64,000 bases of DNA from positions 939,286 to 1,003,285 of the forward strand of contig NC_061118.1 of NCBI RefSeq assembly GCF_002878395.1. Direction: 5' to 3'. Within the stretch, counting starts at the first letter, position 1, and every line of letters begins with the position of its first letter. This DNA is from Capsicum annuum. Its lineage: Eukaryota; Streptophyta; Magnoliopsida; Solanales; Solanaceae. A program made the position numbers and the translations under genes. Positions 26,279-38,600 of the stretch are shown here, piece by piece. Under the pieces are notes generated by a model. The model ran no database searches, was not told the DNA's origin, and saw only the letters and a program-made list of their open reading frames with translations.

Positions 26279-26634
26279 ATGGACCTTCTCCTTCCAATTC
26301 CGGCGAAACTCTCTACATTCTCACGCGCCGGAGCGTGCACTATTTCTCCATCAATTTCCTTTAAAATTTTCACGCGCTTCCGTGTGAATCGGCGCGTGAA
26401 TTACAGTATGAAGCATGTGCGATTGGAATCGAACTTGAATTTCAACAGCAGAAACAGTAGTAGCAGTAATAATAATTGTGAAGTGAATTGCGAAGACGAT
26501 GATAATGTGGAAGGTGTGAAGAATGTGTGGGAAGATAATGACTTTGTTGAAGTATTCGGAATTGGAAGTAGAAAAGATGCGTTGCTTGATTTTTGCTTGG
26601 CTTCGCCTTCACTTTCTACCGCTTTGCGATTTTG
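26279..26634 (+). CDS. ARC3 exon 1 (transit peptide, start of FtsZ-like domain)
   Basis: The ATG gives MDLLLPIPAKLSTFSRAGAC, a hydroxylated/basic chloroplast targeting leader. An acidic Asn/Ser linker and FVEVFGIGSRKDALLDF follow, ending LRFW. The donor TTTTG|GTATGA splits the Trp codon, and G AAT ATC at 38059 completes it. This is the only copy in the array that has a proper start and leader. Confidence 0.93.
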
Positions 26635-35600: not shown

Positions 35601-38600
35601 AGTTTACTAAGTGTCTCAATTTGCTTTGTATCTGCTCGCTCTGATACAGACCAAAAAAATATAGAGTGAATTGATATGCGATGAGATTGAACTCGAATTT
35701 TGACAACAGATACAATTGTAGTAGTAATTGTGAAGGAGATAGTGAGGAGGAAAAAGGTGTGAAGAAAAAGAGAATGAGTTTGTTGAAGCATTTGTTATTG
35801 GAAGTAGGAAAGATGCTTTGGTTGATTTTTGTTTGGCTTTATGTTCGCTTTCTCCGGCTTTACGATTTTGGTATGCTTTCACTGGTGTTTTGTGTGTCGA
35901 TTATTGCATTATTTTATTTCTCGTAATTGTCTTTTCTATTGCTTGTTGTGTAGTGCGCTTTTCCATTTGGATTAAGTTGTATTATAATTGTTTCCATACG
36001 TGTATGTCTTTTTTCGGACTGTTTGATAGGTACCTGTCAAGGTTAAAGTGTTTCGAGTGAAAACCTCCATTTTTTAGCGTATGATAAAACAACTTCTGCA
36101 GCTTCCGAAAATCACTTACTTTTTTGCTAAAAGCATTGGCAAGCGTCTCAACTTTAGAAAATAAGAATTTTTGAATTAATCTTGTCCTAAAAGGCTAATA
36201 ATTTGACACCCAAGGGTCTGGCCTAGTGGTTCAGTGAAATTGGGTTGAGCATCATGAGGTCTTAGGTTCAATTTCTAATAGAGACAAACACTAGGATTTT
36301 TTTTCCTTGACCCAACAAGAAGGTATTTTTTTCTTGACCTTAATATACAAGAAGGATCTTTTAATGCTTCAGTCAAGAGTAATATTATTGAAGCTTCGGA
36401 GACAGCTAATATATGGATAAGTGGAAAGCCTAGAAAATTTGGGAACTTCAGGAGTCTTCTGAAAGAGGACAGAGGAAAAAAGTTTAGAGAGGTTGTAGAG
36501 ACTTTCTTTGAGATGGGTGGATGGCACCAAGAAATTTCAATTGGTGCAATTGAAGACCGTCACATCTCCTAAATAATGGGATGGCCTCAAAATTAAAGAT
36601 TTGGCAGTTTTTAACAAATCTTTGTTGGACAAATGGCTTTGGCGTTTTGGGATGGAGGTACAAGCCTTTTGGAAAGGGGTTATAGTTGATAAATATGGGG
36701 TAATGGAAAGGGGATGGAGAGCTAGAGATGTCACTATGCCTTTTGGGTATGGTTTGTGGAGGATCATAATGAAGGATAAGATGATTTCAATAGAAATATC
36801 TTATTCAAGGTTGGAAATGGGAGGAGAGTTATTTTTTTGGGACATAGGTGGTGTGGGAATGACTTATTGAAAGATGATTTAGAAGGTAAGTGAGATTCAT
36901 GGTGGAGAGACTTTTTGGGACTTGAGATTTAGAAGGAATTTCCACAATTGGGAGGTGACTGTGCTCCAAAGCATGATGACCATTCTTCACGAGCAAGTCA
37001 TTTCGGTGGATAAACCTGATGCTTTGTGGTGGGGTTTGGGGAACAAAAGAGTTTTCTCTGTTAAATTTTTCAATGTGAAATTCCTAATGATGGAGGAGCC
37101 TGTCTGTCCATGTGATGCAATTTGGACAGCGTTGGTGCGGAGGAAGGTGTGTTTTTCTCTTGCCTAGCATCTAGAGTGGTGATTTTGATGGCGGAAAATC
37201 TTATAAAGCGAAAGGTTGGTTGTGTCAGTAGGTGTTACATGTGTAAGGAGATAGGGGAAGAAGTGGATCATCTTCTCATTCATTGTCTTTACCATGAGAT
37301 TAAGGTTGTCTTTACCATGAGATTAAGGTGGCATATGCTTTGATGGTTCAGAGTTTCTTGGGTAATGCCAAAAGCTGTGAAAGATTTAATGTTTCATTGG
37401 AGAAGTGTGAATAGGAGGAGAAGACATAAGGCATGGAATTTGGTCCCTCTTGCGTGGGTTATTTGGAAAGAAAGAAATATGAGAGCTTTCGAGGGGGTAC
37501 AGTTGTGTTTTTCTCAGTTGAGGAATAACCTCCGTCACTTATTTTTGAATTGTTGCACTCATAAAATTCCTTGTTGTATAGAAGTGTGAGTGGAATTCGT
37601 ATAGAATCAGATTTTGTAGATTCTTTACCTTTTGGTTTATCCATCATATATGACCTACTCAGCCTTGTTAGTGAATGAAATACATTTACCTTATTAAAAA
37701 AAGGGAAAAAAGTTGTGTAGACCATTGATGAAATTTTTTGTTTTTTTAAACGAAGGTAACAAGGCCATTGATGAAAATTCACTACAACTTACTATGAAGC
37801 TATTAAGCGAGTGGAAAAAGGGGACTTAAAATAAGGAGCTGGAAATGAAATGTGGGAATGACTTGATTTATCAACTTGTTTCTTTTCAAAAGAAAAAAAA
37901 ATGTATTTAGAGGATTCATTTTGATGCTTCAATTATCTGGTTTTGGGCTTCATTTTGTCCTAGAACGTAATGCTTTCTCTAAGCTACTCGCATGAAACCT
38001 AAGCATGCAGTATTAATTTTTGAAAATGTTGCTGATGTTCTTGTGATGGTATGTGCAGGAATATCCTCGTGAAAGACTCAGAGAAGGTGCTATTACAAGA
38101 GAAAGTGTCTGCAGAAGGTGAAATGTTTTAATATTGTCTCGTTTTTCCTTTTTGTTCTCCTCCTTTCATCTCCTTGCTCAAAATAGTATTCTTCATTTTT
38201 CTTGGTATGGAAGTTGGGGATTAGGTGGTTGTTCTCTAGCACTTAATGAGAAGAAAAGTACAAGTTGCTGCCCAGTTGCTTCCATCGTATTTAATTAGTT
38301 GTCTCACATGGGTTATGTAAGAGTTCTCAAAGAAGCTTATAAATATCTTGAGTGATTCCACCAAATGCCTTTATGGTGGTGGGTTGAATGTTTAGATTCT
38401 TCCCCATGATGAGAGGTCCTTATGCAGCTTTAAATTTTTTGATACCTTTTAAGATGAGTCAAGCTCTTAGATTGTCCAATTACTATTCTGTCAATCTTAT
38501 TTTTTGCTGCCTCCTCCCATTCTATCTGTTATGAACTTAAGCTTTTCTTATAACGTCTTCTTTTGCAGATGTTTCTTCAAGAATTGTGGAAGTTCCATCA

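Follow-up and report, generated by a model that had tools for sequence, protein, structure and literature searches.

The window, the whole 64,000-nucleotide stretch of Capsicum annuum DNA that was analysed (RefSeq assembly GCF_002878395.1, contig NC_061118.1, positions 939,286 to 1,003,285 of the forward strand), contains an intact ARC3 gene at 26279–51240, encoding 780 amino acids in 16 exons that were joined by hand. The nearest protein among the 120 of 270 matches listed was ARC3 of Capsicum chacoense (99% identity over 100% of the query); the same matches included two C. annuum proteins with 100% (rounded) identity and query coverage of 79% and 68%, both of which begin downstream of exon 1. 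Intron 1 measures 11,424 bp, compared with 1,838 bp for the second longest of the 15 introns, and carries 11 partial copies (U1–U11) of the 3′ end of exon 1, the last ending at 35876. An Rfam search over the whole window returned 0 matches. The features of the region are as follows:

26279–26634, plus strand: ARC3 exon 1 (gene model), containing unit U0 (26419 onwards); a mosaic that switches near 26594–26612
26635–38058, plus strand: ARC3 intron 1 (gene model), GTATGA...TGCAG
26743–27108, plus strand: copy U1, donor after 26939, 1-nt frameshift
27109–27409, plus strand: copy U2, donor after 27283 (ATG/GTATGC)
27410–27724, plus strand: copy U3, donor after 27600; nearest to exon 1 at 26594–26634
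27725–27997, plus strand: copy U4, weak donor after 27874 (GTTTGC)
27998–28184, plus strand: copy U5, exon-like part, without a donor (LINE1 lies there); its intron part resumes at 31253–31292 and 32050–32094
28185–31252, plus strand: LINE1, broken endonuclease/reverse-transcriptase retroelement (Pfam RVT_1, 3.5e-22)
31293–32049, no strand assigned: solo-LTR-like insertion of 757 bp, TG...CA, flanks ATTAT/GTTAT, by eye
32095–32455, plus strand: copy U6, donor after 32287
32456–32819, plus strand: copy U7, donor after 32647 (GTATGT), exon-like frame entirely open
32820–33065, plus strand: copy U8, donor after 33008; its intron part resumes at 34825–34945
33066–34811, plus strand: LINE2, of the LINE1 family, with a 13-bp target duplication
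34946–35293, plus strand: copy U9, donor after 35145
35294–35677, plus strand: copy U10, donor after 35497 (GTATGT), exon-like frame entirely open
35678–35876, plus strand: copy U11, donor after 35870; downstream sequence unalignable to the unit's intron part
38059–38117, plus strand: ARC3 exon 2 (gene model), with the intron 1 acceptor

Several further observations concern the gene and its surroundings. One C. annuum protein, ARC3 isoform X6 (P0009), has a divergent start, MNKNTDQGFVLFLNK, and a short additional stretch; by eye, this start is encoded at 38823–38867, within intron 3, so that the annotated alternative 5′ end lies there and not in the array. A 12.4-kb tandem satellite (51612–63999; period 183 bp, about 68 copies, 76% matches) starts about 370 bp past the ARC3 stop codon and reaches the end of the window. 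About 1.1 kb upstream of the start codon, at 24353–25150, a 371-bp unit is repeated 2.2 times with 98% likeness, apparently a young tandem duplication in the probable promoter region, and an unbroken run of 25 G occupies 16310–16334.

The repeated exon part comprises the final 216 of the 356 bases of exon 1 (61%), from 26419, and the 12 units (U0–U11) stand head to tail in a single orientation. Using exon 1 through 26920 (part of U1 included) as the BLAST query, the main piece of each copy was recovered with e-values of about 5e-32 to 3e-123, which excludes chance similarity. The original prediction, that roughly the 3′ 60% of exon 1 and its donor recur 11 times within intron 1, is thus borne out. 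Start-to-start spacing was 306, 360, 316, 269, 305, 4097, 360, 361, 2138, 351, and 373 bp, the two long intervals (4097 and 2138) being occupied by LINE and LTR-like insertions. A complete unit consists of the 216-base exon part minus deletions, the donor, about 110 intron bases, and a spacer, which in some units forms an inverted repeat and in U2, U4, and U5 is reduced to CAATTG. When folded and compared with shuffles, four of six spacers gave z ≤ −2.5, and the other two −1.76 and +0.14. Unit boundaries were not constant across the array: the intron part is missing from U11, the start from U4, and the spacer between U0 and U1. Inclusion of intron sequence in the copies, also part of the prediction, therefore holds for most units and fails for U11, which keeps exon-like sequence and GTATGC.

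Among the insertions, LINE1 also showed an Exo_endo_phos match (3.1e-5) slightly below the cut-off, and its third piece gave no match. LINE2 is 86% identical to LINE1, and its target duplication, TTGAGTCATAATT, lies at 33053–33065 and 34812–34824; both LINEs end at this identical target in different units (31253 and 34812). A 3′ end of the same family, found in intron 5 (41951–42415), is 96% identical to LINE1, closer than LINE2 is.

Mean copy–copy difference ranges from 10 to 18% by segment, and the copies carry distinct insertions; because of this mutual divergence and differential insertion, an assembly artefact is unlikely and was rejected. Across the intron part, the mean copy–copy distance is 0.134 (0.148 after Jukes–Cantor correction). 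With about 7e-9 substitutions per site per year, the array would be roughly 10 million years old, a figure blurred by exchange; at that age it should occur throughout Capsicum. The pseudo-exon array is thus real and likely millions of years old. No ARC3 or similar intron array appeared among the literature matches listed.

The new result is the mosaicism of exon 1 (U0) relative to the array. The mean U0–copy distance is about twice the copy–copy distance at 26419–26500 (0.235 versus 0.112) and also exceeds it at 26501–26593 (0.162 versus 0.100); the order is reversed at 26594–26634 (0.156 versus 0.183) and at 26635–26742 (0.101 versus 0.134). Two 30-base windows on the left, starting at 26434 and 26449, are exceptions (ratio of U0–copy to copy–copy distance 0.79 and 1.16); apart from these, the right-hand part of the parent exon lies significantly nearer to the copies than the adjoining sequence does. 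Private sites were counted in columns with at least eight copies, with U11 blanked past its donor region. Sites private to U0 (n = 23) fell 20 to the left and three to the right of 26594, compared with 29 and 36 for sites private to a single copy (p = 5e-4, Fisher test). The best breakpoint was placed at 26612 (p = 1.5e-4), and its statistic was equalled in 0 of 500 permutations. Consistently, in HKY+G trees the end branch of U0 was the longest of 12 in the left segment (26419–26593; 0.157) and the shortest of 11 in the right segment (26594–26742; 0.028, U11 dropped), with low bootstrap values inside both trees (18–79). At 26594–26634 the unit closest to exon 1 is U3, which agrees with it at 34 of 35 compared bases.

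Third codon positions hold 16 of the 28 differences between U0 and the copy consensus (p = 0.014), an excess that is expected if exon 1 stayed coding; selection on exon 1 should be expected to shorten the left branch of U0, not to lengthen it. The donor side of exon 1 thus appears likely to have come from the array. We infer this direction of exchange from parsimony, since a single event that placed the right half of an array unit on exon 1 is simpler than conversion of many copies. The direct data are the unequal distances of the two halves to exon 1, and these could also be accommodated without any exchange had the founder of the copies taken its left half from another, older exon copy, the right half being merely slow to change. 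Copies differ from each other more on the right (0.134–0.183) than on the left (0.100–0.112), however, which indicates that the right half is not generally slow, and we consider a history of this kind unlikely.

Comparison with the proteins of relatives revealed derived states on both sides, exon 1 having changed at some positions and the copies at different ones. The stretch reads WEE-x-EF in 10 of the 12 non-Capsicum Solanaceae proteins that reach it (the two exceptions are Anisodus proteins) and in both further matching fragments. Pepper and C. chacoense exon 1 reads WEDNDF, with D..D derived relative to E..E, and the copies have E at the two D places of exon 1 in 10 of 11 and nine of 11 cases. 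Cys has replaced the Trp of relatives in nine of 10 readable copies, and a 9-nt in-frame deletion relative to exon 1 is common to all 11. Amplification from a derived unit, as originally proposed, is therefore only partly supported: the common deletion and the Cys residue speak for it, and exon 1's own derived D..D counts against it. Directly before ALRF (or its altered version), exon 1, eight copies, and Withania have T, and U4, U9, U11, the Solanum proteins, and Datura have P; by this split, older and newer unit types may coexist in the array. A fragment that is Solanum-like by its residues (P0122) ends in RFWYAF, which would fit an intron start of GTATGC, as in most copies, and not the GTATGA of exon 1. 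A protein search with an array-like peptide gave two matches, neither with array peptides, a weak test given a database clustered at 90%; in the same 90%-clustered setting, array peptides were absent from the 17 proteins examined among the 120 of 270 ARC3 matches listed.

GT is retained at the homologous donor position in 10 of 11 copies, the exception being U5, where LINE1 inserted. These donors read GTATG in nine cases and GTTTG in one (27874), and are preceded by TTTTG in nine and TTATG in one (27283), in agreement with the expectation that almost every copy keeps a TTTTG/GTATG-type donor. The most conserved block in the units is ATTGGAAGTAGGA. In the donor 10-mer, two of 100 cells are changed, compared with 267 of 3470 in total; a value this low recurs in 22 of 311 windows, which makes the case for donor-specific constraint weak, with mild constraint still conceivable. 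Donor strength was scored with a donor table, to which all values are relative: exon 1's donor scored 1.77, nine of the 10 array donors 1.97–3.29, and the tenth −0.21. By the measure of strength at least equal to that of exon 1, nine of 10 array donors would thus count as competing. The two GTATGT donors also have a stronger U1 pairing energy than exon 1's donor (−4.8 versus −4.2). As a separate observation, a purine stretch in U10 has turned into AAG/GTAAGA at 35376, whose score of 5.9 ranks second in intron 1 once the repeat donors are set aside.

Read-through from exon 1 to any of the 10 array donors gives an identical 122-aa product ending in WYEF and a stop. With this single outcome there is no ladder of proteins, and a set of different truncated proteins, one of the roles first suggested for the donors, was discarded. 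Dosage control is a further possible role: array donors retained in the exon-1 context, most of them outscoring the donor of exon 1, would compete with it as decoys, and the early-stop transcripts, identical whichever donor is used, would lower ARC3 output. Strong GT sites occur at 6.6 per kb over the whole of intron 1, compared with 1.7 in introns 2–15 pooled, which makes the array region (6.6) richer than the other ARC3 introns, yet not richer than its own LINEs (LINE1, 7.5; LINE2, 9.1); the LTR-like insert has 2.6 and the remaining intron 1 4.6. Array donors, moreover, account for only nine of the 75 other intron 1 GT sites that reach or exceed the score of exon 1's donor, and Markov random sequence of the same length is expected to hold 62.6 ± 7.9 such sites. 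Together with the unexceptional conservation of the donors, these counts make decoy-based control improbable.

Recursive splicing at the array donors, another of the suggested roles, is contradicted by their sequence. They read TTTTG/GT or similar, without AG before GT, and the 15 AGGT[AG] sites within units each follow sequence of 10–40% pyrimidine; ratchet recursion at these donors was therefore rejected. Outside the units, AGGT[AG] sites at 31175, 34731, 36028, and 37754 follow 70–75% pyrimidine and by this measure are the only ratchet-like candidates; two of the four lie at the 3′ end of a LINE.

Departures from the copy consensus spread evenly over codon positions 1, 2, and 3 (53/686, 45/685, and 50/682; chi-square p = 0.72), so no coding constraint is visible among the copies, and a coding role for the whole set was rejected for want of a third-position excess. 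In the frame that meets the donor, nine of 11 copies contain at least one stop; the two open ones, U7 and U10, would be possible in-frame cassettes of at most 162 nt, starting at 32486 and 35336, respectively, given use of an internal AG. Shorter open AG choices number two, five, two, two, and three in the copies with donors after 27283, 27874, 32287, 35145, and 35870, respectively, and none was found in those with donors after 26939, 27600, and 33008. The presence of donors is the only positive support for a splicing ladder, and the copies are predicted to be silent and removed with the intron.

The array is also rich in CGATT, which, along with TTNGATYTG, is a motif reported for intron-mediated enhancement (PMC8157754, PMC5216049). 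It contains 16 CGATT compared with 4.5 ± 2.2 expected, a count that 0 of 200 random sequences reached, and three of the array CGATT and two more in exon 1 begin less than 1 kb from the ATG; units near the start could in this way raise ARC3 mRNA. Multimers of TTNGATYTG (11 engineered copies) boost Arabidopsis mRNA near the transcription start, an effect reportedly gone at about 1 kb, which would put most units too far away (PMC6760150). TTNGATYTG itself occurs 0 times in the array (1.0 expected), and CGATT travels with the repeat, so that its excess equals the founder's motif multiplied by copy number; we regard an enhancer as highly unlikely. Least probable of all is that the array donors dock U1 and shield a long, transposon-loaded intron (11.4 kb with two LINEs) from early polyadenylation, since AATAAA occurs once across the three counted parts of intron 1 and is absent from the array, and other strong GT sites are plentiful, even though telescripting exists in Arabidopsis and its authors consider cryptic 5′ splice sites in connection with larger introns (PMC11489095).

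Taken together, we favour, with moderate confidence, a decayed 11-copy array that probably arose by tandem duplication and unequal crossing-over, in which the last ~41 bases of exon 1, its donor, and the first ~110 intron bases were probably swapped with an array unit and the copies are predicted to be silent. Duplication would have begun at the inverted-repeat spacer that joins the units, whose hairpin may have helped slippage or crossover; the missing intron part of U11 does not follow simply from tandem duplication. One crossover or conversion would then have set the right half of an array unit onto the left half of exon 1. At present, the cap-near donor of exon 1 would serve most transcripts, as the uninterrupted frame and the similarity to proteins named ARC3 suggest, and any transcripts from array donors would carry an early stop and be degraded.

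This decayed array has partial counterparts among known systems. It shares diverged, head-to-tail part-gene copies beside their source with intragenic partial tandem duplication and unequal crossing-over, and differs in that the repeated unit consists of an exon end plus splice donor, all 11 copies lie within an intron of a gene that is itself intact, and the source exon forms a mosaic with them. As in concerted evolution and gene conversion between gene and pseudogene, parts of one exon differ in their distance to the copies; here, however, the partner is an exon-fragment array in the gene's own intron, and the exchanged part holds a working donor. Recursive splicing by ratchet points likewise involves several donors in one long intron, whereas the ARC3 array donors lack AG/GT and a pyrimidine tract. 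With the enhancing multimers (PMC6760150), the array shares many copies of a short motif (here CGATT) in a first intron, and departs from them in being natural, spread over 9 kb, free of TTNGATYTG, and of putative activity.

It is conceivable, and in our estimate quite improbable, that the array is still living: exon 1 and pseudo-exons would trade sequence continually, unit number and exon-1 ends would vary among pepper lineages, and units bearing donors and CGATT would set ARC3 mRNA and with it chloroplast size and number, with unequal crossing-over supplying an allelic series. The locus offers a natural test of donor choice by the spliceosome, with ten near-identical donors downstream of the one in exon 1. 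If the mosaic is true, a conserved gene has had its working splice site and the ~14 codons that close exon 1 rebuilt from its intronic pseudo-exons, and sequence shed by duplication can re-enter a coding gene.
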